From contig JAFGXH010000018.1 of the NCBI GenBank assembly GCA_016936735.1, positions 1 to 40,662 on the forward strand: DNA of 40,662 bases. Direction: 5' to 3'. A program made the translations under genes and the position numbers. The notes beneath the pieces are model-generated. The model ran no database searches and was not told the DNA's origin. It saw only the letters and a program-made list of their open reading frames with translations. Shown piece after piece: positions 5,880 through 34,900 of the stretch (positions are counted from its first letter, which is position 1; each line of letters starts with the position of its first letter). This stretch comes from a bacterium. GTDB lineage: Bacteria; UBP6; JAFGXH01.

Positions 5880-5901
5880 AGGTAATATCCTCTAAAACTG
5901 T

Positions 5902-6762: not shown

Positions 6763-6774
6763 AATTCAATCCTA

Positions 6775-7620
6775 TTAAACATCAATTGTAATAATTTTTT
6801 TAATAACAAATCCCCCTAAAACCTCCATTATCATGATAGCAACAATTAGTATTGTTCCAAACCAACTATCAAGAAAAGGTTCCATAAGGTCAGGCCTCAT
6901 TTGTGCTAAAACAATACCAAGACCAAGTGGAAGGAGAGCAACAATAATACCCTGTAACTTACCTTGAGATGTTAGAGATCTGATTTTACCCTCTAGTCTA
7001 AATCTTTCTCTGATTGTTGTTGAGATTGTATCATACATCTCAGACATATTACCACCCATTTGACGAGCAATATTTGTTGAAATAACAGTAAGATCAAGGT
7101 CTTCACTTTGAACTCTTTTTGCCATTGAAATTAGAGCCTCCTCTACAGGAACACCAAGTTTCATCTCTTTTAAAGCAAGTTCAAACTCTAATGCCAATGG
7201 TGCCTCAGACTCTTGTGCAATATTCTCCATTGCTTGTGGAAAACTTAATCCTGCTTTAAAAGCATTTGCCATTTGAACAAGTGAATCCACAAGTTGTCGA
7301 TTAAATTTTTCAAGTCTTTTAGCTTTAAATTTTTTCATAAGAAAAGATGGAAACCAAAATCCTACAGCAGAGAATATGATTCTAAATGTCCAACCTTCAA
7401 AAATCATAAAGGATAAGACAAATATAAAACCTGTAAGAGCAATATTTAAAAAGAATAGTTGACTTGGCGTTATATAGATAAACATTGTTTCAAAATCATT
7501 GGAGGCTTTTGAAAGGTATTTTTTTTGATACTCCTCTGCACTTTTATTTAAAATTTCAAACATTGAAACTGTTAAAAGCACAACAGAGAAAAATATTGTG
7601 ATAATTAAAATTATTCCCAT
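6775..7620 (-). CDS. tadB: Tad/Flp pilus assembly membrane protein TadB (T2SSF domain)
   Basis: T2SSF-like LVDSLVQMANAFKAGLSFPQAMENIAQESEAPLALEFELALKEMKLGVPVEEAL...STNIARQMGGNMSEMYDTISTTIRERFRLEGKIRSLTSQGKLQG. Confidence 0.9.
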   Translation of the reverse strand: MGIILIITIFFSVVLLTVSMFEILNKSAEEYQKKYLSKASNDFETMFIYITPSQLFFLNIALTGFIFVLSFMIFEGWTFRIIFSAVGFWFPSFLMKKFKAKRLEKFNRQLVDSLVQMANAFKAGLSFPQAMENIAQESEAPLALEFELALKEMKLGVPVEEALISMAKRVQSEDLDLTVISTNIARQMGGNMSEMYDTISTTIRERFRLEGKIRSLTSQGKLQGIIVALLPLGLGIVLAQMRPDLMEPFLDSWFGTILIVAIMIMEVLGGFVIKKIITIDV

Positions 7621-7638
7621 TTTATACCTTTAAATTTA

Positions 7639-8454
7639 TTATTTATTTTCACCACGAATAATTGTAATTTGTTTTATCATTTTTTGACGAATTACTGCCA
7701 TCTCCATCGCACGTTCACCAGTGAAAATTGTGTCCAATGTAACTTTTCCTTTTTCATCAAGCATACTTAAATCATCCTCATTTCTAAGTGTAAAATAGAG
7801 ACTTCCCATCTCTTGAGCTAAGATAAGAATCTCTGCCTCTTGAGGGAGAACATAAAGTGTGATAGTGGAGTAACTAATTTTTGTAGTTTTACCTTTTGTT
7901 GCTGTTTTAAAGTTTTCACCAGTATATTCACCTGTTGCAATAACAATAACATTTTCAAGAAGAGTCATTGCAATCTGTTGACGAGTATTTGGGTCTCTAA
8001 ACATACCAATAATATCAATATGATCATTTGGACGAATCCAATAGCCAACAGCAGATGTTTCTGATGCTCTAATTGATACTGCACGTCCCCCTTTCTGGAT
8101 AATTTTTGAAAGTCCCTCTGTTACATTAACCTTTTCTATATCATAATAGAATAAAGGGTCCCCTCTTTGAATATCTGTTATTACAGGTTGACCAACAATA
8201 AAACCTCTATCATTTGGTTTTATCATTCCATTTGTTATAAATTTCTTTGGCATTGGACGAATAGTTAGCATATCATTAGTTAATTTTTCACCAGCTTTAA
8301 CATCCTTAGAGACAACTAATACTTGTCCAAGCTCCCAACCCTTTTGATACTTTTCTTTCTCTTTTTTGATACTGAAATATGCAACAAGTGCAGCTATAAG
8401 TCCTAATACAATTCCAATTATAAGGGGAATTTTACCTTTCATAAAGAACCTCAA
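7639..8454 (-). CDS. cpaB: Flp pilus assembly protein CpaB (SAF domain)
   Basis: VVSKDVKAGEKLTNDMLTIRPMPKKFI SAF-like region and AVSIRASETSAVGYWIRPNDHIDIIGMF CpaB motif. Confidence 0.88.
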   Translation of the reverse strand: MRFFMKGKIPLIIGIVLGLIAALVAYFSIKKEKEKYQKGWELGQVLVVSKDVKAGEKLTNDMLTIRPMPKKFITNGMIKPNDRGFIVGQPVITDIQRGDPLFYYDIEKVNVTEGLSKIIQKGGRAVSIRASETSAVGYWIRPNDHIDIIGMFRDPNTRQQIAMTLLENVIVIATGEYTGENFKTATKGKTTKISYSTITLYVLPQEAEILILAQEMGSLYFTLRNEDDLSMLDEKGKVTLDTIFTGERAMEMAVIRQKMIKQITIIRGENK

Positions 8455-9809: not shown

Positions 9810-12551
9810 ATGTGTAAATGGGTGAGAATGAAAAAGATATTCCGTTTTTTTAATCCTTTAAAGTCGTATTTTGCAGTTGTTCTATATACAATGATTGTAT
9901 TTGTTGTGTTACATTTTCAGTATGTTGGTTCTCCCAATAAATATTCAAATTTTATTGGTTATATAGAGCGATCTTTAGAACAACTAAAGTATCAAATAAG
10001 GGGAGTAAGACCTGTTTCTGATAAAGTTGTTATTGTTGATATGGATGAGGCAACTCTTGAGCAGTATGGTTGGCCTATTAACAGAAAATATTTTGCTGAT
10101 ATGGTTTTAAAACTTAAAAAACTTGGTGCAAAAGTTGTTGCATTTGATATTATTTTTGCTGATGCAAGTAATAATGATGCAATAGTTTCAGCAAAAGAGT
10201 TTTATGAAAGGTTTCAACGAATATCTCTTACATCAAAGGGGGAATTGGTTGATGAATTAACAAGTGTTATTAATGCTCAAGAGAAAAATCTTTTAAAATA
10301 TGAGGATACTGCAAAAAAAATTGATAAATATATTGAAGATTTAAAAGAGTCAAGCAAAGTAATTAAATCTGAAAATGAGAAACTCTCTATTAGAAGAAAT
10401 ATATTCAAAATGGAAAAAGAGAGAAAGAGAATGACTCCTGTTATTAAAAAATCTAAAGAGGATATAATAAAATATAGGCAGATTTTTCAACAATTAAAAA
10501 CACTTAATTCTCAATACTCAGAGTTTCTTGAGAAAAAATCTCTTGAAACATTTCCTGATAAAATTTTTGCAAGAGCAATTCACTCTGCAAAAAATGTTGT
10601 ATTAGGATATGTTGGTTTTACAAGTCAAGAGGAGAGTAAATTAATATCTGAAAAAAGGAGTGAAATAAACTATAAACAGGTTGTTTCAAGATCCGAAATA
10701 AAGCTTAATAAAATCTCTCAAAAAGATATGACAGAATATATGAACATATCAAGATTTTCTGCTATTAATGCACCTCATCCAGAACTGGTTTATGTAGATC
10801 CTCCTCTTCCAAAAGAGCTTGTTGAAAAAATAAATAAAGAGATTGAGGAGGCTACAGATGGAATTCCTGAGGATTTAATAGATATGCTAGATAGAGCTGA
10901 TGGTGTTCTTGCAACAGAAAATTATGGCTCTTTTAATCTAATTCCTGATATTGATGGTATTGCAAGAAACTACTATCCTGTTTTTGCAATAGAGGATGAT
11001 AAAAAAGAGCTACATATTTTATTCTCTTTAGGTTTGGCTGCATTAAAAGTCTATTATCATGATATCAATAATAAATATGATGATTTTTATCTTAAATACC
11101 AAGTAGAGAATAATATTGTTGGTGGAATTCAATTTGATTTTGGTGGAAAAAAATCTTTAAATATGGATTTTGATCAAAGTCATGTTGTTTTAAATTATTA
11201 TGGTCCTGCAGGAACATTTAACTACTATAGCATGAAAGATATTTTGGATGACAAATTTACAGAGAAGGAGTTTAAAGACAAAATTGTTTTAATTGGTACA
11301 ACTGCAACAGGTCTTTTAGATTTTCGTTCATCTCCATTTGATACATCACAAAGATATGCAGGAGTTGAGGTTCATGCAACATTTATTGAAAATGTATTGA
11401 ATGATAGCTATTTCCAAAGATATAGTATGACATATATTATAGAGCTTTTAGTTCTTATTATAATGGGATTTCTTTTTGGATTTATTTTAGCAAAAATTCA
11501 TCTATATTTTGGGTTTATATTCTCTGTATTATCCTCCATAATTGTTTTTTATATTGATTTACTATTTTTCTTTAAGAATAGTATACAGGTGTTTTCACTT
11601 TTTCATATAACATTACCAATTATACTTTTTGTTGTTATAACAATATTCCGTTATTTTAGTGAAGAGAGGGAGAAAACAAGAATAAAAGGTGCTTTTAAAT
11701 ACTATTTAAGTAAATCTGTTGTTGATGAGGTGCTAAAAGATCCATCAAAACTCTCTCTTGGTGGTGTTAAAAAGAATCTATCAGTACTTTTTAGTGATAT
11801 TAGGGGATTTACAACAATATCAGAGGTATTAACTCCAGAGCAATTATCTGCAGTATTAAATGATTATCTTACTCCAATGACAAATATTGTTTTTAAATAT
11901 GGTGGAACTCTTGATAAATATATGGGTGATGCAATTATGGCATTTTTTGGTGCACCAATAGATCAACCAGATCATGCAGAGAGAGCATGTTTGACTGCAT
12001 TAGAGATGATGGAGAGACTTCAAGTGTTTAGAGAGGGATTAAAAACAAGACAACTTCCTGATATTGATATTGGTATTGGTATAAATACTGGAGAGATGTC
12101 TGTTGGAAATATGGGGTCTCAACAGAGATTTGATTATACTGTAATGGGAGATAATGTTAATTTAGGCTCAAGATTAGAGGGAATAAATAAGCAATATCAC
12201 TCAAATATTATTGTTAGTGAGTTCACTTTTAAAGAGATTGAGGGAAAACTTCTTTGTAGAAAACTTGACTCTGTAAGAGTAAAGGGTAAAAAACTTCCTG
12301 TTGTTATTTATGAACTTGTAAGTAAAAATATACAAGATCCAATATGGAATGAGATTTCCAAATTATGTGATGTTGGGATAACATTATATATGGAAAAAAA
12401 ATGGGATGAATCAATTGTTGTTTTTGAAAAAGTTCTAAAACTTAGAGATAACGATTATCCCGCACAAATGTATATTGAACGCTGTAGTTTTTATAAACAA
12501 AATCCACCAGAAGATGGATGGGATGGTGTTTTTACAATGACAACTAAATAG
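9810..12551 (+). CDS. CHASE2-domain class III adenylate/guanylate cyclase with C-terminal TPR-like tail (start may be 9828)
   Basis: CHASE2 DKVVIVDMDEATLEQYGWPINRKYFADMV; three TM helices; cyclase core SVLFSDIRGFTTISE...GGTLDKYMGDAIMAFFGAP...IGINTGEMSVGNMGSQQRFDYTVMGDNVNLGSRLEG. Confidence 0.93.
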   Translation: MCKWVRMKKIFRFFNPLKSYFAVVLYTMIVFVVLHFQYVGSPNKYSNFIGYIERSLEQLKYQIRGVRPVSDKVVIVDMDEATLEQYGWPINRKYFADMVLKLKKLGAKVVAFDIIFADASNNDAIVSAKEFYERFQRISLTSKGELVDELTSVINAQEKNLLKYEDTAKKIDKYIEDLKESSKVIKSENEKLSIRRNIFKMEKERKRMTPVIKKSKEDIIKYRQIFQQLKTLNSQYSEFLEKKSLETFPDKIFARAIHSAKNVVLGYVGFTSQEESKLISEKRSEINYKQVVSRSEIKLNKISQKDMTEYMNISRFSAINAPHPELVYVDPPLPKELVEKINKEIEEATDGIPEDLIDMLDRADGVLATENYGSFNLIPDIDGIARNYYPVFAIEDDKKELHILFSLGLAALKVYYHDINNKYDDFYLKYQVENNIVGGIQFDFGGKKSLNMDFDQSHVVLNYYGPAGTFNYYSMKDILDDKFTEKEFKDKIVLIGTTATGLLDFRSSPFDTSQRYAGVEVHATFIENVLNDSYFQRYSMTYIIELLVLIIMGFLFGFILAKIHLYFGFIFSVLSSIIVFYIDLLFFFKNSIQVFSLFHITLPIILFVVITIFRYFSEEREKTRIKGAFKYYLSKSVVDEVLKDPSKLSLGGVKKNLSVLFSDIRGFTTISEVLTPEQLSAVLNDYLTPMTNIVFKYGGTLDKYMGDAIMAFFGAPIDQPDHAERACLTALEMMERLQVFREGLKTRQLPDIDIGIGINTGEMSVGNMGSQQRFDYTVMGDNVNLGSRLEGINKQYHSNIIVSEFTFKEIEGKLLCRKLDSVRVKGKKLPVVIYELVSKNIQDPIWNEISKLCDVGITLYMEKKWDESIVVFEKVLKLRDNDYPAQMYIERCSFYKQNPPEDGWDGVFTMTTK

Positions 12552-12649
12552 TTTTAGCTATTTTTTTATAAAAAAATAGAATTTTCTTGTGTAAACTATT
12601 TTTTTTAAATACAATGAAATATTGTCTGAAAAACAGACAGGGGGGAATT

Positions 12650-13309
12650 ATGAGTTTAGATGATCAGCTCTTTAATAAGTTCGGAAAACTTTTTAAGAAG
12701 GGTACATATCTTTTCCATGAAAAAGATCGTGGTGATGAGATGTATGTTATTCAAGAGGGAAAAATAGCAATAATAAAAGAGTCTGGAGGACAGGAGACAA
12801 CATTAGCTGTTCTTGATAAGGGAGAGTTTTTAGGAGAGATGAGTATTCTTACAAAAAAACCAAGAACTGCAACAGCTAAAGTTTTAGAGGATGCTAAATT
12901 ATTAGTTATAAATCCATCAACTTTTGAAGCAATGATTAGAGGGGATGCCAATATTGCAATAAGAATGCTTCAACGTCTTGCTGATAGACTTGCAAAAACA
13001 GATAATCAGATAGAGAATCTTCTTTTAAAAGATCCAAGTGCTAAAGTTGTTCATTATTTGAAATCTGAAGCAGAACGTAAAACTTCAGACAATGCTACTC
13101 AAGAGGTTGAATTAACATTATCTCTTGTGGAGATATCAAGAACTATTCTTTTAGATCCAGAGGATGTAAAAAAAGTTTTAGCCAAATTATTAAAAAATGA
13201 GCTTATTATACAATTAAATGGAGCTCAATTTAAAATTCCAAATTTAAAAGTTTTCCAAGATTTTTATGATTATCTTGCAAAAAGAGAGAAATTTAAAGAG
13301 TTTAGTTAG
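12650..13309 (+). CDS. Cyclic-nucleotide-binding (Crp/Fnr-like) protein
   Basis: cNMP-binding fold GTYLFHEKDRGDEMYVIQEGKIAIIKE...VLDKGEFLGEMSILTKKPRTATAKVLED and C-terminal winged-helix-like LVEISRTILLDPEDVKKVLAKLLKNELI. The ORF track starts at 12587; ATG 12650 has a purine-rich gggggg upstream. Confidence 0.85.
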   Translation: MSLDDQLFNKFGKLFKKGTYLFHEKDRGDEMYVIQEGKIAIIKESGGQETTLAVLDKGEFLGEMSILTKKPRTATAKVLEDAKLLVINPSTFEAMIRGDANIAIRMLQRLADRLAKTDNQIENLLLKDPSAKVVHYLKSEAERKTSDNATQEVELTLSLVEISRTILLDPEDVKKVLAKLLKNELIIQLNGAQFKIPNLKVFQDFYDYLAKREKFKEFS

Positions 13310-13317
13310 GAGTATTT

Positions 13318-14079
13318 ATGAAAATATCATTGCTTGGAATAGATGGTGGAGAGTTAGGGAAAGAGAATCATGCAATCTCTTTTTTGGTAGATGATGTGTT
13401 AGCCATTGATGCTGGTGGACTACTTCATGCTATGAAATTAAAAAACTTACTAAAAATAGATTCAGTTCTTATTAGTCATACCCATATAGATCATGTAAAA
13501 GATCTTCTTTTATGGGGAGATTTGATATTTGCTCAAAGACCTTCAATAGAGACTCATGGTGCAGAGGATGTTTTGGAAGCAGTAAGAAAACATCTTTTTA
13601 ATTGGACTATTTGGCCAGATTTCTCTTCAATACCAACAAAAGATAATCCTGTTTTTAAATTTATTCCTCATCAGAGAGGAGATATATTTGAGACTATTGG
13701 TTATAATGTTCAAAGTATTGAGGTAAATCACTCTGTACCATCAAGTGCATTTATCGTAGCTGATAAAAAGGATGCTATTTTATATTCATCAGATACAACA
13801 ACAACTGATGATGTTTGGCAAGTTGCAAATATCAGAGATGATTTAAGAGTAATATTTATGGAAGTATCTTTTCCAAATAGAATGCAATCTGTTGCTGATG
13901 CTTCAAAACATTACTCTCCAAAAACTTTGTCAGAGGATTTGAAAAAAATAAAAAAAGATGTTCCAATATATTTATATCATATAAAACCAAGTGTATATGA
14001 TGAGGTTGTTGCAGAGATAAAAGAGATTCAGGATGATAGAATTCAAATAGCAGAGGGTAAATCAACTATAAAAATATAA
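13318..14079 (+). CDS. MBL-fold 3',5'-cyclic-nucleotide phosphodiesterase (class II PDE-like)
   Basis: NHAISFLVDDVLAIDAGGL...SHTHIDHVKDLLLWGDLIFAQR; HxHxDH metal-binding motif; late SSDTTTTDDVW and FMEVSFPN. Confidence 0.8.
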   Translation: MKISLLGIDGGELGKENHAISFLVDDVLAIDAGGLLHAMKLKNLLKIDSVLISHTHIDHVKDLLLWGDLIFAQRPSIETHGAEDVLEAVRKHLFNWTIWPDFSSIPTKDNPVFKFIPHQRGDIFETIGYNVQSIEVNHSVPSSAFIVADKKDAILYSSDTTTTDDVWQVANIRDDLRVIFMEVSFPNRMQSVADASKHYSPKTLSEDLKKIKKDVPIYLYHIKPSVYDEVVAEIKEIQDDRIQIAEGKSTIKI

Positions 14080-15384: not shown

Positions 15385-15741
15385 TTAATCTATTTGAAGA
15401 TAATCAGCATAATATACCATTTCACTATTTACAGATTTTTTAATAATATCATAATAGAGTTGTTTGGAAGATATTGATATCTCATTATTAGGCATTATAT
15501 TATTAATTGTAATCTGTTTTTTCCCTTTTTTCCCATAAAAAGTAATTAATACTCCATTTTCAGGAGAGATTTTTACTGTCTGGTTACTTTCTAATAGTGT
15601 AACAGTGATAATATGTTTCTCTTGATCAAGAGAAACAACTTTTGCTCTATAATGAGGAATCTCCTCTATTATTTGATTAATTTCTGGTGCAGCAGATAAT
15701 ACAAATGAGAATATTATTGCAATAAAAAAATATTTTGCCAT
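15385..15741 (-). CDS. Small secreted protein, paralogue A (118 aa, signal peptide, beta-rich)
   Basis: N-terminal signal peptide; strongly similar to 19919..20275 (EEIPHYRAKVVSLDQEKHIITVTLLES..TVKISPE.GV...FYGKKGKK); follows a PilY1-like gene. Confidence 0.75.
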   Translation of the reverse strand: MAKYFFIAIIFSFVLSAAPEINQIIEEIPHYRAKVVSLDQEKHIITVTLLESNQTVKISPENGVLITFYGKKGKKQITINNIMPNNEISISSKQLYYDIIKKSVNSEMVYYADYLQID

Positions 15742-15766
15742 TGCTCTCTCCTTTTCAACTTATTAA

Positions 15767-15798
15767 AAAGAGAGATAACAAAATAGTTATCTCTCTTT
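15767..15798 (-). terminator. 13-bp stem, 6-nt loop intercistronic hairpin followed by a T-run on the minus strand
   Basis: aaagagagataac-aaaata-gttatctctcttt; on the minus strand followed by ttttt, then aaaggag and ATG of 15741. Confidence 0.6.
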
Positions 15799-15860
15799 AA
15801 ATTATTAAAAGATATTTAAAAATAGTTTTTCGTGTTTTAACTAAAAACTATTGAATTTTA

Positions 15861-18800
15861 TTAGAAAATCTCTTTAAAATATGTAAATGGAACATCACTT
15901 GTTTCTGTTGTAGATGCAGATTTTCTTTCCCAACGAATAAGATTATCTTTTCTCTCCATATCATCAAATCTACCAGAGTCATTTTCAGAATCTGTTTCTC
16001 CTGAAATACCAAAATACATTACATCACCCTTCATTACAGGTGATGTTGCAACCCCTTTACCTAAAAGTCCTTTTGGTCCAGGATTTGCACTTGCAAGTTT
16101 AAAGTCAGGATTAAAACATCCCGAAAATAGTTCAAATGAGTAGATGTATGATAATCCTAAATGACCAGAACACTCTCCACCACTATCTTCACCATGTTCA
16201 TAAACAGTAAAATATGAATATCCCTCAATTATAGTTGGATCTCCAACTAATTTCTCTTTACCTGCTAAATTATATCTCCACCCATTGGTTTGAGGATCAC
16301 AAGTAGAGCCTGAATTGTAAGTTGATGAAATTAGTGTTAAATTACTTGGTGTTTTTGTTGATGTTGGATCAAAAGTATCCCAAGTTGAGTCTTTTATTGC
16401 ATAAAGGGTATTTGTTCCAGCATTTTCAGTTAAATCATAAATATCTGAATTTCCTGTTCCATAATAAACCCATACACTTGTATCTGCAGAGTTTGGATTT
16501 CCATCATATGCAAGAGCAATGGAGTAATAAACATAATCTTTTTTTGTATTATCTGCATTACTATTAAAAAGCATTATACAGCCATTTGCAGAATCTGTTG
16601 ATGATGAAGAGCAAGTGTGTGTTTGAGTTGTTGCTGTATCACCTTTTTTTGGATTGATTCTCCATACATGGCCCGCTAAATCAGCTACATAAATAAGTTT
16701 TGCTTCCCTGTTTTCCTCCAATTGTGGTTCAGGTAAAACAGCAACTGTTGCTGGAACTCTAGCTGAAACATTGCTATTACTATTAGTGATATTAAATGTT
16801 TTTATGAGAGATCCATTTAATACATTAAACATATAAATTGAACTTCCATATTCTGGAGTTCCAGATGCTGGTTTTGCTTCTTGTAATCCACCACCACCCA
16901 TTATTCCTACAAATGTTCCAGGAGTATCTGATGAGGAGTTTATTTGAGCAATAATTGGTTCAGACCAAGTGTAATAGAGATTTGAGTAATCAAACTGATG
17001 ATTATTACTCATCTCTGTTCCAGCCAATTTATCAAGAAGATCTGTATCTATTCCTGTTGGAGCATTATCACGAATATTTTTGGAATAAACTGTTACTCCA
17101 CCATCAGAACCCCAATATAATACACGTTTTAGTGTGTTTCTATTATTCCAATTATCAAATAAAGGAGAGTCTAATATCCAAGGGGATTCATTATATATAG
17201 CCCATAAAAATGTTGGTCCATCTGTTAAACTTACATTTGTAATATCAAGAGCCATTAATCCAGCACCACCCTCTCCAAATCCAATTAAAAGAACTGATTT
17301 CCAGGTTGAGGATGCATGATCAAAAATATCCATAATTTTTGGGGAACGATCAACAAAGAATTGACTTTTTGTTTCGCTTGGAGATACAATAATGTTTTTT
17401 AAATATGATAGTAGATTTGGTGGAACAAATGCCCAAGCCTCTTTACCATCAGATATTTTAAATGCATGAATCATACCATCATTACTACCAACAATTAATA
17501 CCTCATTCCCAGATCTTGTATTATTATTTATAAAATCTCTATAAGTGGAGTAGGTAAATGTTTGATTTGGTTTTCCAAAATATTTTGCACGACTATTATA
17601 GATATCAGCTATACGAAAACTTCTTTCAGGACAATCACTTCCAGCTGTTTTTCCTGTACAAGCATCATCATTAGAATAATCATTATCATCTTTATAGCTA
17701 TCTTTTCCTCTAAAGAAATGAATTAATTTTCTTGCCTCTTTTAAGGCATCTGTTGTATGGCCAGTTCCTGGACCACCTGGTTCCCAATGACAAACTGTTA
17801 CTGGTGCTTTTTTAAGACGATATTGCATTAATTTAAATGCAATATCATTATGAGAAGCATTTGAATAGAAGTATATTTTAGCTTGACCTCTTGGAATTGT
17901 TACTACTCCATTTGTCATAGTTGTTACCAATGTACAGGTTGATAATCTTTTTGAATTTCCGCTATCTTGTGCACCTCCAGTTCCACAATCAAAAATTTTT
18001 CCACCATCAACAATATAATAGTAGTATGTTGCTAAACCTGTTGTTATTCCTTGAATCTCAATATAATCAAGAAATGTTCTATTGGTATTACTATTTCCAT
18101 TTGTTGAAAGAAGTAAATCTCTTAAATCAAGTTCAATTGTATCATAATCTGTTGAAGGGTTTCCAACTGTTTTTGAAACTCTGTTAAGATTATTTCTATA
18201 GTTTGCACTTGGATTTTCTAACCACATTGTTGAATCATAATCAGCTGTTCCAGGACCATATATTTGACCACCTGTACAATATCCATTAATACATAAAGCA
18301 TTAGGTTGACTAGGATGACTTGAACGACAAGTGCTATCTGCTGAACATGTTCTTGTTGCACCACTATTTTTAGTCCAGTCTGAGTAACAATCGCAAGTAT
18401 GGTTATATTGACATAGATATCTTTCAATTAATCTTGCATCTGTTGTTGCATTACCATTACAATTTCCACCTGAATAGGTACTAAATTGGTACATTGAACA
18501 GAAATGTTTATAAGAGTCATATGATGAGAATATCTGATTGTAAAAATTATTTCTACAACTATATGTTGATGGTTCTCTTTCTGGTTGCCAATAATCAGAA
18601 ACCCATTCTTCCCAATCGTAAGTTGTTGTATTACAAACTTCAATAGGTGTAGCAGCTCCACCACCACCCTCCATCATTAAACAGTCAGCAAGAATCTCTC
18701 CCTCTGGATCACTTGCAACAAATTTTGTTGCAACTTGACCAGATGTACCACCTTTACAGCGTGTGAAAATGTTTCTATTATTTGCAAGAGCAATAACATC

Positions 18801-19718
18801 AGAGCGACCAGAATCCCAAGTAGCTGTTGTAACCCAACCATCATCATTAAGAACATATTTATAAAAATGGCCCTCCCACTGTTTTCCCTCTCTTGGAAGA
18901 AATTGAGACTGGTAAATTACATCATTATCTGGTCCAGCAAATGATGGAATTAGAGTTGGAACAGCACTTGTTATATTTTTTGCACCAATATCAGCAATAA
19001 TAGATCTAAAAACATCTAATAACTGTTGAGTATTGCTTGCATTATAACTTGTTCCTGTACCACCGGCTGTTGCAATATATTGTACATTAGTACCACCAAA
19101 TCCAATTGCATATGTTAGGATATTTTTATAATATACCTCTCTTCCATCAACTTGAAATCCAGAGAGATAATTAGTTCTAAGAGATTGAACTGTTGTTGAC
19201 ACTGGTCCAGGACCGCTGTTTGCAACCCCATCAGTAAATAAAACAAGATAGTTTTTTTGACACCAATGCTCTATTGGAGATGAGCAATCAATTGAACCAT
19301 AACAAACATTATTTGTTGCTCCAAGATTTTTATAATACCAACCTCCACTTTCAGATGCCTCTTTTAAAGGTGTTCCACCTGAAGCATAAAGAGCATTAAC
19401 TCCACTTTGTAGGTCAGATAAATGTGTTTCACTATTATCCCTTACAGGAACTGTTATTTGTTTTCTTGTTGAACGTGGAAATTCAGATAACCCCATACGA
19501 ATTGATTGAGTAATATTTGAATCTGAAAGAAGTGCTGTTAAAGCATTTTTTGTTTGTGTCATTGCACTTGGATTTCCCCAACCACCCATAGAACCAGATG
19601 TATCAATAATAAATAGAACATTTGGACGAACACTAACCCCTGACCCTGGAGGGAGAGGTTTTACTGCTGCAAATAGTGATATTGTAGCAAAAAAAGCCAA
19701 AATAGTTATCGGTTTCAT
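15861..19718 (-). CDS. VWA-domain PilY1-like type IV pilus adhesin/biogenesis protein, paralogue A
   Basis: Signal peptide; MIDAS FIIDTSGSMGG; PilY1 C-terminal motif EVLIVGSNDGMIHAFKISDGKEAWAFVPPNLLSYLKNI, YVADLAGHVWRINP. ATG 19718 (SD gggggaa) preferred over ORF start 19766. Confidence 0.85.
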   Translation of the reverse strand: MKPITILAFFATISLFAAVKPLPPGSGVSVRPNVLFIIDTSGSMGGWGNPSAMTQTKNALTALLSDSNITQSIRMGLSEFPRSTRKQITVPVRDNSETHLSDLQSGVNALYASGGTPLKEASESGGWYYKNLGATNNVCYGSIDCSSPIEHWCQKNYLVLFTDGVANSGPGPVSTTVQSLRTNYLSGFQVDGREVYYKNILTYAIGFGGTNVQYIATAGGTGTSYNASNTQQLLDVFRSIIADIGAKNITSAVPTLIPSFAGPDNDVIYQSQFLPREGKQWEGHFYKYVLNDDGWVTTATWDSGRSDVIALANNRNIFTRCKGGTSGQVATKFVASDPEGEILADCLMMEGGGGAATPIEVCNTTTYDWEEWVSDYWQPEREPSTYSCRNNFYNQIFSSYDSYKHFCSMYQFSTYSGGNCNGNATTDARLIERYLCQYNHTCDCYSDWTKNSGATRTCSADSTCRSSHPSQPNALCINGYCTGGQIYGPGTADYDSTMWLENPSANYRNNLNRVSKTVGNPSTDYDTIELDLRDLLLSTNGNSNTNRTFLDYIEIQGITTGLATYYYYIVDGGKIFDCGTGGAQDSGNSKRLSTCTLVTTMTNGVVTIPRGQAKIYFYSNASHNDIAFKLMQYRLKKAPVTVCHWEPGGPGTGHTTDALKEARKLIHFFRGKDSYKDDNDYSNDDACTGKTAGSDCPERSFRIADIYNSRAKYFGKPNQTFTYSTYRDFINNNTRSGNEVLIVGSNDGMIHAFKISDGKEAWAFVPPNLLSYLKNIIVSPSETKSQFFVDRSPKIMDIFDHASSTWKSVLLIGFGEGGAGLMALDITNVSLTDGPTFLWAIYNESPWILDSPLFDNWNNRNTLKRVLYWGSDGGVTVYSKNIRDNAPTGIDTDLLDKLAGTEMSNNHQFDYSNLYYTWSEPIIAQINSSSDTPGTFVGIMGGGGLQEAKPASGTPEYGSSIYMFNVLNGSLIKTFNITNSNSNVSARVPATVAVLPEPQLEENREAKLIYVADLAGHVWRINPKKGDTATTQTHTCSSSSTDSANGCIMLFNSNADNTKKDYVYYSIALAYDGNPNSADTSVWVYYGTGNSDIYDLTENAGTNTLYAIKDSTWDTFDPTSTKTPSNLTLISSTYNSGSTCDPQTNGWRYNLAGKEKLVGDPTIIEGYSYFTVYEHGEDSGGECSGHLGLSYIYSFELFSGCFNPDFKLASANPGPKGLLGKGVATSPVMKGDVMYFGISGETDSENDSGRFDDMERKDNLIRWERKSASTTETSDVPFTYFKEIF

Positions 19719-19809
19719 ATTTCCCCCAATATAAATCAGCTTTATTACAAGCAAGAAAAATTCCAAATAACATATATTTTTGATTTAAAAAGGGTAAAAA
19801 TAGTTATAT

Positions 19810-19837
19810 TTATGAAATGATTTACATAAAATATCAC
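19810..19837 (-). promoter_or_regulatory. Conserved upstream element of PilY1-like paralogue A
   Basis: ttatgaaatgatttacataaaatatcac; 26/28 identical to 24406-24433, both about 91-92 nt upstream of the start codon. Confidence 0.45.
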
Positions 19838-19918
19838 CTAAATTTAATTTTTTATTTTTAATAAACATATTTTTAACTCTATTTTAAGAGTGAAAATTTT
19901 ACACTTAAATTATAAAAT

Positions 19919-20275
19919 TCAATCCATTTGAATGTAGTTTACTTTATATATTTTATCAATATCAACCGATTTTTTGAGAAGATCCTTATGAAGTTCTATT
20001 GAAATAATTGCAATCTCATTTTTTAAGATTATATTTGTTGTTGATATCATTTTTTTCCCTTTTTTTCCATAAAACATCACACTAACACCCTCTTCTGGAG
20101 AGATTTTTACTGTTTTTCCACCATTTAATAAAGTTAGTGTTATAATATTTTTTTGATTATCAATTGATACAACTTTTCCTCTATACATTGGAATCTCTTC
20201 TGATTGAAACTCTAGTTCAGGTGCTGAAAATAGTAAAAATGAAAATAAAAACATCATAAAAAAATATTTTACCAT
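19919..20275 (-). CDS. Small secreted protein, paralogue B (118 aa)
   Basis: Signal peptide; paralogue of 15385..15741; same relative position after a PilY1-like gene. Confidence 0.75.
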   Translation of the reverse strand: MVKYFFMMFLFSFLLFSAPELEFQSEEIPMYRGKVVSIDNQKNIITLTLLNGGKTVKISPEEGVSVMFYGKKGKKMISTTNIILKNEIAIISIELHKDLLKKSVDIDKIYKVNYIQMD

Positions 20276-20293
20276 AATAATCTCCTTTTAGTT

Positions 20294-20333
20294 TATCTAT
20301 AGAGAGGTAATAAAAATTACCTCTCTATAGATA
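20294..20333. repeat. Perfect 17-bp stem hairpin between PilY1-like paralogue B and the small secreted protein B
   Basis: tatctatagagaggtaa-taaaaa-ttacctctctatagata, read directly. Confidence 0.85.
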
Positions 20334-20334
20334 A

Positions 20335-23300
20335 TTAAAAAATCTCTTTGAAATATGTAAATGGAACATCACTTGTTCCAGTTGTAGATGCTGATTTTCT
20401 CTCCCAACGAATAAGATTATCTTTTCTATCCATTCCATCAAACCTATCACCATTATTTTCACTATCTGTTTTTCCAGAGATACCAAAATACATATATTCC
20501 CCTTTCATTACTGGAGCTGTTGCAACCCCTTTACCAAGGAATCCTTTTGGAGTTGGATCTGAACTATTCTTTATAAAATCGGGATTAAAACAGCCTGAAA
20601 ATAGTTCAAAAGAGTACACATAAGATTTTCCTAAACTAGCATCACACACTCCACCACTTCCAACATCATGTTTATATACTGTAAAATATGAATATCCCTC
20701 TATAATTGCGGGAATATCTACCAATTTTTCACCATCCTCTAACTTATATATCCACCCTTTATTTTTTTTACTACAACTAGAGGAGTAAATTTTAGATATT
20801 GTATCTAATTCTGATTCCAAAATTCTCAAATCTGAATTTTGAGTATCCCAAGTTGAATCTTTAATTGCATATAAAGTGTTTTTTCCCTCATCTTTTGCTA
20901 AATCATGAATATTTGAGTCACCTGTTCCAAGATAAATCCATAATGCTGTTTCAGGTGTTGATGGATTTCCATCATAAGCAAGAGCAATAGAGTTATAAAC
21001 ATAATTCTTTCTAGTTTTATCTGCATTTACATTAAAAAGCATTAAACAACCATCTGAATTTGTTGATGAGTTTGAACAAACATGTTTTTCAGTTACTGAT
21101 AAATCCCCTTTTTTAGGATTTATTCTCCATAAATGACCTGCTAAATCAGCAACATAAATCAATTTAATCTCTCTGTTATCTGCTAAATCTGGTTCAGGTA
21201 AAATTGCAACTGTTGCGGGAACTCTTGCTGAAACATTTGGATTACTATTTTCAATATCAAATGTTTTTATTAATGAACCACTTAATACATCAAACATATA
21301 TATTGAACTTCCATAAATATTTATTTTCTCTTCGGATAATCCACCTCCACCCATAACCCCAACAAATCTTCCTGGAGTATTTTTATCAGAACCAATTTGA
21401 GCAATAATTGGTTCTGACCAAGTGTAGTAAAGATTTGAGTAATCAAAAGCTGGATTAGTACTCAAATCATCTCCAGCAATTTTATTTAATAACTCTGAAT
21501 CTATACCTGATGGAGCATTCTCTCTAATTTTCTTTGAAAACACTTTTATTTTCCCTTCAGAGTTCCAATATAAAACCCTTCTTAACTCACTTTTATTAGA
21601 CCAACCACTAAAAATTTCAGAGTTCTCAATCCAAGGGGATTCATTATATATTGCCCATAAAAATGTAGGTCCATCTGCAGTAACAGTTGTTATATCAAGA
21701 GCCATTAGACCTGCACCACCCTCTCCAAAAGTAATGAGTAAAATAGATCTCCAATTATCTCCATCAAAAACATCCATTATTTTTGGGGATCGATCTACAA
21801 AAAACTGACTTTCTGTTTTCCCACTTTCACTACTTACAATATTTTTTAAATATGGAAGTAGGTTAGGTGGAACAAAAGCCCAACTCTCCTTTCCTGTATT
21901 AGCATTAAAAGCATGAATCATTCCTCCATTACTTCCAACAATCAGCATTGGAACTCTTTCAGAGTAATCTTCAATAAATTCTTTATAGCTTTCAAATGTA
22001 AAAAATTGATTTGGTTTTCCAAAATATTTTGCTCTACTATTATAAATATCTGAAAGAGGATATTTTCTCTCTGGACAATCATCTCCTGCTATTTTTCCAG
22101 AACATACATCAAGATTTGTATATTTAGTATCCTCCATATAACTATCTTTTCCTCTAAAAAAGTGGATAAGTTTTCGAGCATTTTTATACATCTCTTCAGT
22201 ATGATCTGAACCTGGTCCAGCAGGTTCCCAACGACAACTAACAGTTGGAGCTTTTTTAACTCTATATTTCACCAATTTCAATGCAATATCATTTCCTTGT
22301 GGATTAGAGTGGAATTTTAAATTTGCACCACCTCTTGGAATAGATATTACTCCATCCATCATATCACCTTTATATTGGCAGGTGATTGGTATTTTTAAAG
22401 GATTTTTTGTTGCTTTTGTTGTTCCACAATCAAACATTTTTCCATTATCAACAACATAATAGTAGTATTTAAGAGAGTCTGTTGTCTCTCCCTCAATCTC
22501 TAAATAGTCCTGAAAGACTCTATTTATATTATCATTATCATTTGAAGAGAATTTTAAATCTTCAAAATAAAGCTCAATTGAGTTATATTCATCACTTGTA
22601 TTTCCTACAACTTTTAACTCATCAATATTATCTTTATAATTTGTATTAAAATGTTCTTCCCAACTATTTGGATAACGTTCTCCTGTCTCTTCATCAAAAA
22701 CTATTCCACCAGTGCAATAGTTTTTATTAGATATCGAGTCATAAATACATTGTGCATTAGGTTCAGATACTTCAATACAATCTGTATCTAAAAAACAGAT
22801 TTTAGCTTTTTGTGATTCTGGCTTCCAAGCTTTATAACAATCACAAGCATTATTTGCTTGACAGAGATATCGTTCAATTAATTTTGCATCTGTGATTGGA
22901 TTACCAGTACAATCACCACCTGAATGGTAAGCAAAATCCTCCATTGTTATACATAAAAATTTATAGGAATCAAAAGAGTTTAAAATTTCATTGTAAGTAT
23001 TATTTCTACAATTAAAATTAGATCCATCTCTTTGTGGTTGCCAATTTGAGTTAACCCACTCTTCCCAATCATAAGTAGTTGTATAACAAACATTTATAGG
23101 AGTTCCAGCTCCACTTTGTCCCTCCATCATTAAACAATCTGCAAGAATATTATCTTTCTCTGCCTCAAATTTTGTAACAAGCTCTCCATCATCTTTTCCA
23201 CCAAAACAACGAGTAAATATATTTCTCTCATTTGCTTTTCCAATTATACTTGAATCACCAGAGTCCCATTTTTTATCATCTGCCCAACCATCTTTAAACT

Positions 23301-24315
23301 CATATTTATAAAAGTGTCCCTCCCACTGTTTTCCCTGTCTTGGAACAAATAGTGATTGATAAATAACATCTTCATTTGGACCATCAAAAGATACAACCAT
23401 AGTTGGCATTGTTGATGTTATATTATTTTGAGCAATCTCTGTAACAACCTCATTAAATACTGCAATTAAATCATCACTATTTTTTGCATTTCTTCCATGT
23501 CCTGTTCCCCCTGGATCAGCAATATAATCAACATTTGTTGCTGTAGAACCAAAACCAACTGCATAAGTTCTAATTTTGGTATCAAAAAGTGCTTCTCCAT
23601 CAACCTTAAATGAGGAGAGATAGTTATTAAAAAGTTGTTCTGCTTTATTTGCTGCTTGATCTCTTCCTGTTGTTCCACCATCAGGCTCTCCATCTGTAAA
23701 TAAAACTATATAATTTTTTTGACATTTATGGATAATAGGTGTTTTTTTACTTGAATCATAGGTGTTTTGAAAAATATTTTGAGTTGTTTGTGTATTATTT
23801 ATTCCTGCTCCATAATAATAGTGACCTCCCCCTCGTAATGAGTTAGATATTGGAGTTCCACCATTTGCATTAATATTATTAATTTCAGTTTTTAATTTAT
23901 TTATATGTTCTGTTGTTGAGTAATCAATATTTTGAAGCAACTGTTTATCATTTCCACCATTTGGAAATTGAGATAATCCAATTCTAATCGATTTTGTGAT
24001 ATTTGTGTCTGATAGTAAAGCATTAATAGCCTGTTTAGTCTGTTTAATTCTATCATAATGAGTTCCTGAACCATCTTTACATTGACATGATGTGTGAGGA
24101 TTATCAGTATAATGATTCCACCCATTCCACCCATCATAACAAACTCTCCAAATATTGGGAGCAGTTTCAATATCACACCACTCCATAGAACCAGAGTTAT
24201 CTATTATAAAAAGGACATTAGGCTCAATTGTTACACCAGAACCTGGTGGAAGTGTTTTTACTGTTGCAAAAATTGACAAATTTGTAAATAATATTAACAA
24301 AATCATGGATTTCAT
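20335..24315 (-). CDS. VWA-domain PilY1-like type IV pilus adhesin/biogenesis protein, paralogue B
   Basis: Signal peptide; MIDAS FIIDNSGSME; PilY1 motif MLIVGSNGGMIHAFNANTGKESWAFVPPNLLPYLKNIV; C-terminus almost identical to paralogue A (SASTTGTSDVPFTYFKEIF). Confidence 0.85.
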   Translation of the reverse strand: MKSMILLILFTNLSIFATVKTLPPGSGVTIEPNVLFIIDNSGSMEWCDIETAPNIWRVCYDGWNGWNHYTDNPHTSCQCKDGSGTHYDRIKQTKQAINALLSDTNITKSIRIGLSQFPNGGNDKQLLQNIDYSTTEHINKLKTEINNINANGGTPISNSLRGGGHYYYGAGINNTQTTQNIFQNTYDSSKKTPIIHKCQKNYIVLFTDGEPDGGTTGRDQAANKAEQLFNNYLSSFKVDGEALFDTKIRTYAVGFGSTATNVDYIADPGGTGHGRNAKNSDDLIAVFNEVVTEIAQNNITSTMPTMVVSFDGPNEDVIYQSLFVPRQGKQWEGHFYKYEFKDGWADDKKWDSGDSSIIGKANERNIFTRCFGGKDDGELVTKFEAEKDNILADCLMMEGQSGAGTPINVCYTTTYDWEEWVNSNWQPQRDGSNFNCRNNTYNEILNSFDSYKFLCITMEDFAYHSGGDCTGNPITDAKLIERYLCQANNACDCYKAWKPESQKAKICFLDTDCIEVSEPNAQCIYDSISNKNYCTGGIVFDEETGERYPNSWEEHFNTNYKDNIDELKVVGNTSDEYNSIELYFEDLKFSSNDNDNINRVFQDYLEIEGETTDSLKYYYYVVDNGKMFDCGTTKATKNPLKIPITCQYKGDMMDGVISIPRGGANLKFHSNPQGNDIALKLVKYRVKKAPTVSCRWEPAGPGSDHTEEMYKNARKLIHFFRGKDSYMEDTKYTNLDVCSGKIAGDDCPERKYPLSDIYNSRAKYFGKPNQFFTFESYKEFIEDYSERVPMLIVGSNGGMIHAFNANTGKESWAFVPPNLLPYLKNIVSSESGKTESQFFVDRSPKIMDVFDGDNWRSILLITFGEGGAGLMALDITTVTADGPTFLWAIYNESPWIENSEIFSGWSNKSELRRVLYWNSEGKIKVFSKKIRENAPSGIDSELLNKIAGDDLSTNPAFDYSNLYYTWSEPIIAQIGSDKNTPGRFVGVMGGGGLSEEKINIYGSSIYMFDVLSGSLIKTFDIENSNPNVSARVPATVAILPEPDLADNREIKLIYVADLAGHLWRINPKKGDLSVTEKHVCSNSSTNSDGCLMLFNVNADKTRKNYVYNSIALAYDGNPSTPETALWIYLGTGDSNIHDLAKDEGKNTLYAIKDSTWDTQNSDLRILESELDTISKIYSSSCSKKNKGWIYKLEDGEKLVDIPAIIEGYSYFTVYKHDVGSGGVCDASLGKSYVYSFELFSGCFNPDFIKNSSDPTPKGFLGKGVATAPVMKGEYMYFGISGKTDSENNGDRFDGMDRKDNLIRWERKSASTTGTSDVPFTYFKEIF

Positions 24316-24405
24316 GTTACCACCAAAATAAATTTGCTGGCTTTTAGCAAAATAGTTTCCAAGTATTTGATTTATTTTTTTTTAAAATGTTATAAATAAT
24401 AGGCA

Positions 24406-24433
24406 TTATGAAATCATTTACATAAAATATTAC
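24406..24433 (-). promoter_or_regulatory. Conserved upstream element of PilY1-like paralogue B
   Basis: ttatgaaatcatttacataaaatattac; matches 19810-19837 at the same distance from the start codon. Confidence 0.45.
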
Positions 24434-24582: not shown

Positions 24583-25566
24583 TTAGTCTAAGATATAGAG
24601 TCTAGGATTTACAGGAATTCCATATTTTCTAATTTCATAATGAAGATGAGGACCACTACTTCTTCCAGAGTTTCCAAGATAAGCAATAATATCCCCTTTT
24701 TTGATTTTGTCCCCTTTTTTTATTAATATTCGTTGAAGATGTGCATATCTAGTTTCTAAATCATATCCATGAGATATAATGATAACATTTCCATAACCAC
24801 CCTGTTCTCCAGCAAAAGTAACGACTCCATTTCCACTTGCTTTTATTGGTAAACCCTCATTATTAGCAATATCTAAACCTTCATGAAATTTTGTGTCACC
24901 AGTAAATGGATCTGTTCTTGGACCAAATTCAGAAGACAACCATCCTCTTACTGGCCATATAGATGGTGTTGAAAGAAGCATATCTGCTTTTTCAAAAATT
25001 GTTCCATAGCTGGTTATAATTGATTTGGAGAATCTCTCTATCTCTTCATTTAATACTATTTCAAAAGAGCTTAAAAGCTCTATAGTTCCATCAAGATTAT
25101 ATTTAACATTTTCATCAATTATATAATCACCTTTTTTATCAGAGAAAAGGGTTTCAAAATCTATTTTTGTGCCTGTTTTTGTACTATTTGATATTCCTCC
25201 TGTTGGAAATTCTGAGGATGTGTCAAAAAGATTTTTTATTCTAGAATAGTATGTTTTTGTTTGTAGAAAATTGAATTGTAAGAGATTGAATTTATTTTCG
25301 AGTTGTTCAAGTTTTTGATTGAGAAGGTTTTGTTCTTCCAATTTTGTTAATATAACACTATCTTTTTGAGTATCAACCTTTTGTATTCTTAGAAACTGAT
25401 ATCCAAAAAAAAATGCTGCCCCACCAAAAGATAGAAGCAGCAAAATATTAATAACTATAATTTTTTTCAACAAAGAGGAGGAGAATCGATATTTTTTTAC
25501 ACTTCCACCACTCTGGTGAGGTATAATTACAACATCAAAAAGATTCTTTCGTTTTTTTTCAGCCAA
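24583..25566 (-). CDS. M23-family (LytM) peptidoglycan peptidase, membrane anchored
   Basis: FGPRTDPFTGDTKFHEGLDIANNEGLPIKASGNGVVTFAGEQGGYGNVIIISHGYDLETRYAHLQRILIKKGDKIKKGDIIAYLGNSGRSSGPHLHYEI. Confidence 0.93.
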   Translation of the reverse strand: MAEKKRKNLFDVVIIPHQSGGSVKKYRFSSSLLKKIIVINILLLLSFGGAAFFFGYQFLRIQKVDTQKDSVILTKLEEQNLLNQKLEQLENKFNLLQFNFLQTKTYYSRIKNLFDTSSEFPTGGISNSTKTGTKIDFETLFSDKKGDYIIDENVKYNLDGTIELLSSFEIVLNEEIERFSKSIITSYGTIFEKADMLLSTPSIWPVRGWLSSEFGPRTDPFTGDTKFHEGLDIANNEGLPIKASGNGVVTFAGEQGGYGNVIIISHGYDLETRYAHLQRILIKKGDKIKKGDIIAYLGNSGRSSGPHLHYEIRKYGIPVNPRLYILD

Positions 25567-31044: not shown

Positions 31045-31908
31045 CTACTCAGAGACTGTTAACACTCTCCAATCCATACCACCACGATCATCTTGTGCAA
31101 TGATATAGATTTTATAGGAACCTCCATCTTTTGGAGGGCTAAAACTGTTCTCATCAAACTCTTCAAGGGTTTCATCTCTTTTTTGATTGGTATAAAAGTA
31201 GTCTATTGAGCCTTTTGTGGATACCCAAGAGAATGTTATTCTTTCATCAACCTCTTGGTCATCATAGTTTAACTGTTTTTCAAAAGAGTCTTGTGTAACA
31301 GCAGCTTTGAAATCTACATCCTCTGTTAATGCTTGAAGAGTATCACTCTCAAGTTTAGTGTCATTCATGTAGATATCACTCAATACAGGATTGCTATTTT
31401 TCTCTGCATCAGCCTGAACAACTTTAACTCTTTTAAAAGAGATTAAGAAGCTTGAAGGATCTACTCCTCCTGAACCCATCGCTAGGTTAGTGCAGTTCTC
31501 CATTGTATCTTCACAAAGAATCAGCACAACATATAAAAGCTTCTCCTCTTGACCAAAAGCGGTTAATGAGTCCTCTGGAATTCTGAATGTATGAGTATCA
31601 CTCTCGAATCCAGGCTGACCAATTATACCTCCACCCTCAAAATTCATACAGGATAGGAAACTTCCATTGCTTCCATCAACAGCCTCAGGGTCACACACTA
31701 ACCAAACATTGTGGTATTCACCTGTATAATCCTCTGGTGCTGTTATTAAAGTTGTCAAAGTAACCTCTTCACCAGGGGATGCCCAAGGTTTATCTGCCTT
31801 TATTCCTAAAACTCTTAGCTTATTAACCTCAACAGGAGAGGTCATCTCTGGACCACAACCATAAAAAAGTGTAGCCATTAATAAAATAGATAGTATATAT
31901 TTCTTCAT
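31045..31908 (-). CDS. Lipoprotein of unknown function, translationally coupled to the upstream TonB-dependent receptor
   Basis: Lipobox MATLFYGCGPE; start ATG 31908 overlaps the receptor stop (TAATG). Confidence 0.75.
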   Translation of the reverse strand: MKKYILSILLMATLFYGCGPEMTSPVEVNKLRVLGIKADKPWASPGEEVTLTTLITAPEDYTGEYHNVWLVCDPEAVDGSNGSFLSCMNFEGGGIIGQPGFESDTHTFRIPEDSLTAFGQEEKLLYVVLILCEDTMENCTNLAMGSGGVDPSSFLISFKRVKVVQADAEKNSNPVLSDIYMNDTKLESDTLQALTEDVDFKAAVTQDSFEKQLNYDDQEVDERITFSWVSTKGSIDYFYTNQKRDETLEEFDENSFSPPKDGGSYKIYIIAQDDRGGMDWRVLTVSE

Positions 31909-34900
31909 TACCACTCTCCTTTTATACCAAATGATGGAAAAATAGGCAATCCCTCAACTTTCTGACTCTCACTATAGTCATAGTTATAGTCAACACCCTC
32001 TTGATTTTTATAGTAGGTGACATTCTGAACATCGAGATATGCTGTAAGTGTCCAGAGTTTAAACTGCCAAGTTTTATCAATTCTAATATCAAGTTGAAAG
32101 AATGGCTCATTTCTTTTGGATAGTGCCTCTCCATATATAGGTGAATAGGTTGCATTATCGGAATCAAACACAGAGCCTGTTATAGGTGTCTCTGGTGAAC
32201 CTGTAACATATCTTAATCTTGCTCCAACCTCGAAGCCATAAGGTAGCTTATATGAACCCAAAATAGTCAATATATGTGTTTGGTCAAATCTAAATAGCTC
32301 CCAATCCTCCCAAGGATGCTCTTTTCTTTCAGCTCTCATAAGAGTGTATGATATCCATCCAAAGAATCTTTTTGAAAGATTGTGTCTAATAAATAGCTCC
32401 ATACCATAAGCACGACCCTTTCCATCATTATTAACCATCTCGCTTGTAACTTCACCATCAATAACAACCTTCTCATCACTAGATACGATAAGATCTCTTT
32501 GGTCATTATAGAAGAACTCAATAGATGTTGTGATATCATCATTGAACCTATACTCAGCACCAAGAGAGTATTGGATACTATATTGAGCCTCTGTATCTGG
32601 ATTACCAACAAAACTATCTGTCTGTTCAATAGATGCAGGCATATGAAAAACCCCTGCAGAGCCTTTTAATAACCAATCATCTGTTAATGTGTAGAAAACA
32701 CCTAATCTAGGATCTACAGTTATCTGTTCAGAGTTTTGGAAATAGTCAAATCTAACTCCAGGAACAGCTTTAAATTTACCAAATGTTCCTATTGCCTCAA
32801 TATATATTGCAGGATAGATTGTGCTTCCCTCCTCAATCTGTCTCTCTTTTTCATAAGAGCCAATTGGTTCAAACTCTGCTGAGTTCTGTTCTGCACTTGA
32901 AAATTTAGGTGCTAAGACATCTGCTTTATAGAATTGAGCTATAGAGTCAACACCAAAGTTAAAGGTTATATTGGAGTTAAGCTTATACTCCAGGTTCTCT
33001 CTTAATAGAATTGTCCAAGCAGATATATTAAAGTCAAGTAGACTTCCTAAAAATATATCATTAGAGGAGTATTGTAATCCAACAGAGAGGTCTGAAACTA
33101 GATTTTTTGAGAATTTATGTTCCCAAGAGCTTTTTATTGTAGAGAAGTATGTAGTAAAGCCAAAGGCTCCCTCTATATTAGGGTCTCCTGTAGGCTTACC
33201 AAGATATAGTTCAAAGTTATCATGGCTTCCATAAAGGGCAAATGTAAACTTATCTTTCTTTGTAAATTGGTTATTATACTGTAACTGCCAATCATAATAT
33301 ACAGGAAGAGCAACCACAATATCAGAAACACTATCTGGAAGAATAGCAGGAAGAACCGTATCAATATAGCTTCTTCTAAATGCAACTGCAACTCCTGAGT
33401 CATCATCAATAGGAATCTCAACCATAGCTGAAGTGTCAATAAGGTCAATATCTACAAAACCATGGATATTTTTATTATCTTTTTTGGTTATTACATCTTT
33501 TGTTTTAACATCTATAATACCACCAAGGGAGCGACCATATTTAACAGAGTAGCCTCCAGGAAAATATGAGACATCTTGAAGAAGTTCAGAGTTATATACT
33601 GATGTTAAACCACCAAAATGGTAAAGAAGAGGGACTCTAAAGCCATCAATAAATATCTCGCTCTCTCTATTTGAGCTACCACGGATAATAATTTGACCAG
33701 ATAACCCACCAGCTCTAGATACACCTGGAAGATTTTGAACAACTTTTATAGCATCACCACTTGTTCCAGGAACTTTTAAAAGCTCTTGAACCTGAATAGT
33801 CTGTTTAGTAACCTCTTTTCTAGCCTTTCTTGAAACAACAGTTAACTCATAAGGATTAATATCATCCTTAGGGATATAGACTGTCATAACAACAAGGCTA
33901 CCTTTTTTAACATCCTCTTTACTTTCAAAGCGAAGGAAGTTATCTTTTTCAGGAACTAATATAGTATATTCACCATCTTTTAGGTTTTTGAATAGGAATT
34001 TTCCATCTGAATCACTAATAGTTTCAAAGCTGTTTTTATCAGAGTCAATTGCATAAACAAGAGCGTTAGCGATTGGTTCTCTGCTACCATAAGCATAAAG
34101 GGAACCTTTAACAGAGTCATACTCTGCTGTCTCAACAATAAGGGTTTCATCCTTTTTAGCCTTCTCAATCTCCTCTTGAGTAGCCTTCTCTTCAGCTTTA
34201 ATAACAAAATTATATTGATAAGTTATTCTAACTGGAACAGGTTTATCCTGATATTCAGCTGGAGTAAACTCAAACTGTTTTACTGCCTCAATAGCTGGCT
34301 CATTAAACTGCTCATTTGTTGTTTGAATAACCCCTGTATTTATGATTTTTCCAGCCTCATCTAAGTCAATAAATAGAAGAACGGCACCTTCGACTTTCTG
34401 TTTTTTTAATTCGATAGGGTAGTTAGCCTCAACGAACTTTTTTAATTCAGGAAATTTTGATAATGTTGGAGCCTCTTCAGCCTTAGTTTCATCTGTATTG
34501 GTATTTGTTGCCTCTGTTGTGTTGGCTGTTGTAGTTTCAACTGCCTTATCATTATTGTTGAGGGTAGATTGTTGGCTAGTTTGTGTCCTATTGGTGGAGT
34601 CTGTTGAAGCAGTGTTGCCTGTTGTTGACTCTGTTTTGGCCTGAGTGTTACCGTTAGACCCCTCTTGGGTAGCCTCAGTTGCCTCCTGCTTAGCCTCAGT
34701 TGCCTCTTGCTTAGCCTCAGTTGCCTCTTGCTTAACCTCTGTTGCTTCTTGCTTAACCTCAGTTGCCTCCTGCTTAACCTCAGTTGCCTCCTGCTTAACC
34801 TCAGTTGCCTCCTGCTTAGCCTCAGTTGCCTCTTGCTTAGCCTCTGTTGCCTCCTGCTTAGCCTCTTCTCCATTTTTCACAACAACAATAGTCTCTCTAT

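Follow-up and report, generated by a model that had tools for sequence, protein, structure and literature searches.

Two tandem units of a PilY1-type tip protein gene and a gene for a small exported protein in a UBP6 bacterium

The window, a stretch of 40,662 nucleotides from a UBP6 genome (G000; 3.59 Mb in 380 contigs, 93% complete), carries two intact tandem units on the minus strand (positions 15385–24315), each made up of a gene for a giant PilY1-type protein and, directly downstream on the same strand, a gene for a 118-aa protein. Read along the minus strand, the gene order is giant B, small b, giant A, small a. Giant B (20335–24315, minus strand) is a PilY1-type tip protein of 1326 aa that matches PF05567 (E 5.7e-12) and PF00092 (E 2.1e-6) and is composed of a putative signal peptide, a VWA domain with a MIDAS (DNSGS at 39), a Cys-rich middle, a C-terminal PilY1 propeller and the terminal strand FTYFKEIF. 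Small b (19919–20275, minus strand) encodes 118 aa, exported as judged by eye, with a predicted OB-like beta-barrel (AF2 pLDDT 71). Giant A (15861–19718, minus strand), likewise a PilY1-type tip protein, matches the same two families (PF05567, E 2.5e-9; PF00092, E 5.6e-7) and has its MIDAS (DTSGS) at 39; the open reading frame was called at 15861–19766 from a TTG, and the putative signal peptide begins at the ATG at 19718, giving a product of 1285 aa. Small a (15385–15741, minus strand) is again 118 aa and exported as judged by eye, and its mature part is predicted with an OB-like strand order (AF2 pLDDT 76). The gap between giant and small gene is 119 nt in unit A and 59 nt in unit B. The module is flanked by murG, which ends convergently at 15380, and by an upstream M23 peptidase gene (24583–25566). 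An initial annotation had proposed a tandem duplication of a module composed of a PilY1-like VWA giant and an exported 118-aa protein; the two same-strand units, the PilY1 identity of the giants and the signal peptides read by eye in both small proteins all agree with it.

Several other genes of the window were annotated. A cAMP block (9810–14079), 1.3 kb from the PilY1 units, comprises a CHASE2-adenylate cyclase, a CRP-like regulator with a cNMP-binding domain and a weak HTH_Crp match, and a class-II cAMP phosphodiesterase; in the sister genus G002 the block is likewise conserved next to murG, with no PilY1 accompanying it. A Tad/Flp-pilus-like run at 2351–8454, a partial cluster, holds two T2SSF proteins (TadB/TadC-like), RcpC/CpaB and two FHA-domain proteins, one of them with TPRs. 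An 1138-aa chain (31908–35324) combines a TonB C-terminal domain (300–374), a carboxypeptidase regulatory-like domain and a TonB-dependent receptor plug (508–602), an energizer-receptor fusion that looks unusual, and a 668-aa protein with RCC1-type propeller repeats is encoded at 38466–40472.

Type IVa pili have PilY1 as their tip and primer, and the pilY1 gene usually belongs to a minor-pilin operon, with known exceptions. The giants score 45.7 and 37 bits against PF05567 (cut-off 28.1), in alignments limited to roughly the first third of the profile, their VWA matches likewise exceed the cut-off, and the closest solved structure is the C-terminal domain of Pseudomonas aeruginosa PilY1 (3HX6, E 1.4e-15). 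A motif scan showed that the MIDAS signature D.S.S at 39 and the subsequent T and D are kept in both proteins, which contain 26 (giant A) and 28 (giant B) cysteines and begin with a hydrophobic segment followed by a plausible cleavage site, read by eye. The canonical calcium loop is absent: DNNSDGVAD of 3HX6 aligns to DNRE and a three-residue gap, and the motif scan recovered no D-x-D-x-D-G in either giant. A propeller calcium loop is common, not universal, among PilY1/PilC proteins and is not required for membership. Terminal strands of other PilY1/PilC proteins resemble those of the giants (RLSWREVFF in Neisseria gonorrhoeae, RQSWRQLQ in Legionella, RVYWYDEI in Cupriavidus and VPFAYFNEIY in the sister genus), and by this comparison the common C-terminus of the giants is the general PilY1/PilC terminal strand, not a feature special to the pair. 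Beta-strand complementation between PilX and PilY1 has been predicted (PMC13190605), and the terminal strand of the giants may be the one that takes part in it.

The regions upstream of the two giants align as homologous and share a 22-nt box, TTTTATGTAAATGATTTCATAA in unit B (24406–24427, minus strand; a quasi-palindrome TTATG-N10-CATAA inside the 267-nt gap that precedes giant B) and TTTTATGTAAATCATTTCATAA in unit A (19810–19831, minus strand). At three or fewer mismatches the box has exactly two matches in the window, compared with 0.02 expected, and is a probable operator or promoter element. A near-match with two mismatches was found elsewhere in the genome, at the pilD stop codon and about 95 nt upstream of fimT (locus L051, 3655–3675); since the DNA there encodes the pilD C-terminus MKSIT-stop, it may be a coincidence, and it was not counted as evidence of a regulon common to the minor pilins.

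Each unit also has an intercistronic hairpin on the minus strand. The one in unit B (20293–20334) forms a 19-bp stem with a 4-nt loop (-27 kcal/mol, z -7.2), and the one in unit A (15767–15798) a perfect 13-bp stem with a 6-nt loop followed by a T-run (z -4.6), so that the latter looks like a terminator and the former does not. An 11-bp core (20301–20326 in unit B) is conserved between the copies and includes two compensatory pairs, which are suggestive only, coming from two sequences and being equalled in 107 of 500 shuffles of the 3' letters. No further copy that would mark the hairpin as a dispersed repeat was detected among 82 loci examined. Because the hairpin stands between giant and small gene and resembles a terminator in unit A, co-transcription is uncertain; the conserved structure may set the ratio of giant to small product.

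Divergence was compared between the two gene pairs. The giants are identical at 762 of 1266 positions (60%) and the small proteins at 65 of 118 (55%); Nei-Gojobori dN is 0.324 for the giants and 0.325 for the small proteins, and dS is 0.80 and 0.91, respectively. Such equal divergence is what one event predicts and indicates, as far as divergence shows, a single tandem duplication of the unit in the distant past. With dN/dS of about 0.40 (giants) and 0.36 (small proteins), both copies are old and show continued constraint rather than decay; on these ratios all four genes have been kept under purifying selection, and copy B is an intact, constrained gene pair instead of the decayed recent duplicate that the initial annotation had allowed for. 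That annotation had also described a divergent middle and near-identical C-termini. The VWA and Cys-rich parts are indeed the most diverged, with 35–62% identity per 100 columns in the N-terminal part against 51–74% over most of the C-terminal half, and dN falls from 0.31–0.50 in the N-terminal region to 0.10–0.34 in the C-terminal half, with its minimum of 0.10 at the C-terminal end; near-identity, however, is confined to about the last 30 residues. Co-duplication itself had been taken as an argument for partnership. Passive tandem duplication copies neighbors anyway, so co-duplication amounts to a single event and is weak evidence; the better argument is that purifying selection has kept the small genes alongside the giants.

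The 118-aa proteins have a signal peptide, read by eye, and zero cysteines, and the pair shares the invariant stretches EEIP, TVKISPE (followed by one substitution), FYGKKGKK and KKSV. Pfam gave no reliable match. The N-terminal PilZNR/YcgR domain (PF12945) was considered and rejected: small b alone reached 18 bits (cut-off 23, E 0.0032), small a gave nothing, and the export signal also opposes this assignment, YcgR being cytoplasmic. AlphaFold2, run on a two-sequence alignment, with the best of five models alone being reasonable in each run, predicted a beta-barrel of OB-like form that carries a helix close to the C-terminus (pLDDT 71 at full length, 76 for the mature part), and Foldseek retrieved OB folds (CusF, CspA and ribosomal S12-type) at E 0.003–0.03, none below 0.001. 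We therefore assign an OB-like barrel with moderate confidence, support that does not extend to a function. PilY2 (PF14481) did not match the 118-aa proteins in hmmscan at E up to 10, and genome-wide the profile gave zero matches in this genome, the sister genome and 33 other genomes (one of these searches being run without a positive control). No NCBIfam match to TapY2 (NF038109) was obtained for the 118-aa proteins at E up to 1, and homology to TapY2 was discarded after hhalign against the Aeromonas protein aligned 5 columns with a probability of 0.2%. The family of the small partner thus appears undescribed, set apart from PilY2 by HMM comparison.

Regarding the pilus machinery, the initial annotation was right that the window holds no minor pilins; they are present, however, elsewhere in the genome, on contig C263, where pilD-fimT-pilV-pilW-pilX form one gene run without PilY1. 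PilX was assigned there by position, with PilX_N (PF14341) reaching only a sub-threshold E of 0.14. Behind pilX lies a 112-aa exported ORF (L051, 565–903) that matched no family; its similarity to the 118-aa protein ends with the signal peptide, and it was dismissed as a third copy. Major-pilin-like genes are located on C197 and PilB/PilT on C155, while C358 carries a second PilT and C299 PilM. With minor pilins, PilT and PilM present on other contigs, the best reading of the giants is as alternative type IVa pilus tips, and since a single minor-pilin set and no third PilY1 were found in the genome, the two giants probably use this set in common or compete for it. Their genes lie outside the minor-pilin operon, on a different contig; Neisseria is likewise an exception to the conserved layout of pilY1 and minor-pilin genes (PMC13190605).

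The distribution of both genes among relatives is narrow. Of the 28 genomes examined within the phylum, one encodes the 118-aa protein, with no homologue found in the other 27, and the giant was found in two, plus one marginal match. The initial annotation had considered that small homologues might commonly occur without PilY1 neighbors; across 61 genomes searched, none was found away from PilY1, and the only two copies are those described here. A GTDB-wide scan with the giant returned zero matches, and one with the C-terminal alignment returned only a MAG of the sister genus (G002, contig JAMOQH010000092.1, of the 4559-240 assembly), which has a single PilY1 that seems to be split between two contig ends. 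The sample name 4559-240 occurs in a study of deep-sea hydrothermal vents (PMC9793634). No 118-aa gene follows PilY1 in this MAG; instead, about 35 nt away lies a gene in convergent orientation whose product by eye resembles a lytic transglycosylase, so a partner is not obligatory for this type of PilY1. It follows that the small gene either joined PilY1 in the G000 lineage before the duplication or was lost from the sister genus. In the congener G001 (82% complete) neither giant nor 118-aa gene was found, and its murG and M23 loci lie on separate contigs with other neighbors and without the module. Conservation of the module in relatives is thus not observed in the congener, and the absence of the small gene from the sister genus and of both genes from the congener implies that the partner is dispensable over a short evolutionary distance.

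Taking these observations together, we hypothesize that the giants are alternative type IVa tip adhesins, that the 118-aa protein is a lineage-specific periplasmic accessory and that the unit was duplicated once, a reading to which we assign a probability of about 0.6. Each giant would be exported, and its C-terminal propeller and terminal beta-strand would dock on the common FimT-PilV-PilW-PilX set, priming and capping the pilus, while the diverged VWA/Cys-rich N-terminal half would face outward and bind surfaces; we infer both the docking on minor pilins and the adhesion through the N-terminus. The 118-aa protein, made with each giant, could act as a periplasmic OB-like accessory that aids folding, stability or loading until the priming complex is reached. 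Its position and precedent make the part of a lineage-specific periplasmic PilY1 accessory the most likely one, so that, as a lineage-specific counterpart, it would correspond to PilY2 and TapY2 in position and probable role, though not in sequence. The unit of box, giant, hairpin and small gene would have been duplicated once in tandem, and subsequent divergence of the N-termini would have produced two tip specificities.

Other roles of the small protein have to be weighed against this one. It could be an exported protein with an envelope role of its own that happened to lie behind PilY1 at the duplication, as the passive carriage of neighbors by one event, the PilY1 without a small gene in the sister genus and the hairpin separating the genes, terminator-like in unit A, would allow; however, both small copies have been kept, with a dN equal to that of the giants and dN/dS of 0.36, they are the only two in the genome, with none away from PilY1 in the genomes searched, and the intercistronic hairpin is conserved, so we regard a chance neighbor as unlikely. 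A true but very diverged PilY2 family member would explain why position, direction and export are as in P. aeruginosa PilY2, but the zero PF14481 matches, even at the permissive hmmscan threshold or genome-wide, make this quite improbable. Least probable is a further tip or surface subunit that exits with the pilus and widens its binding in place of a periplasmic helper: being exported, duplicated and diverging alongside a probable outward-facing adhesin fits such a subunit, whereas the small predicted OB-like fold, in which no adhesin-like domain was found, and the action of studied PilY1 neighbors in biogenesis speak against it.

A bolder form of the accessory reading, in which the 118-aa protein founds a new OB-like periplasmic PilY1-accessory family, unrelated to PilY2, TapY2 or TfcP, with each member acting on its own giant, is put forward tentatively and is, on balance, doubtful. 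If true, type IVa pili would have recruited small helpers beside PilY1 repeatedly and convergently, and matched specificity would have co-evolved in the two G000 pairs. The small neighbors of PilY1 are hardly understood, and two matched pairs decoupled from minor pilins offer a natural specificity experiment on whether such proteins act on their own PilY1 or not.

The suggestion in the initial annotation that the pairing may be undescribed was wrong as to its kind, since PilY1-PilY2 of Pseudomonas and PilY1-TapY2 of Aeromonas have the same layout. PilY2 was reportedly found to be necessary for pili in 1996. In P. aeruginosa, pilY1 and pilY2 are co-transcribed and both products have been reported as necessary for pilus formation (PMC2680260, PMC10191384); no mechanism for PilY2 was found in the literature searched. 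The P. aeruginosa locus (fimU-pilVWXY1Y2E; PF05567 and PF14481) resembles the present one in the small same-strand non-pilin after PilY1 and in the homologous propeller, but here the small protein is unrelated by HMM, minor pilins are absent from the operon, the unit occurs in two tandem copies, and the giants have a VWA N-terminus and lack the calcium loop. In Aeromonas (record L061), the gene directly after PilY1 also encodes an exported protein of roughly 100 aa, a member of the TapY2 family (NF038109; E 1.3e-13); unlike the 118-aa protein, with which it has no sequence match, it is 94 aa long and its gene overlaps the PilY1 stop.

Myxococcus xanthus likewise has several PilY1 paralogues with a conserved C-terminus and different N-termini, and an accessory gene beside PilY1: TfcP, encoded next to PilY1.1, helps calcium binding and stabilizes PilY1.1 (PMC8833165). 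In contrast to the 118-aa protein, TfcP belongs to the cytochromes c, its gene lies upstream of pilY1.1 and its action promotes calcium binding; each M. xanthus PilY1, moreover, has its own minor pilins. TfcP-type calcium loading by the 118-aa protein is unlikely, the canonical loop being missing from the giants, which makes support of folding or stability the better guess. Neisseria, with PilC1 and PilC2, matches the present genome in having two paralogues and in departing from the usual gene layout, yet the N-terminal half of these proteins differs from that of the giants, and we know of no comparable small exported partner there. Overall, the arrangement of PilY1 followed by a small exported protein is known from other bacteria, while the partner family appears to be new and the tandem double pair, encoded apart from the minor pilins, is a new form of this arrangement.
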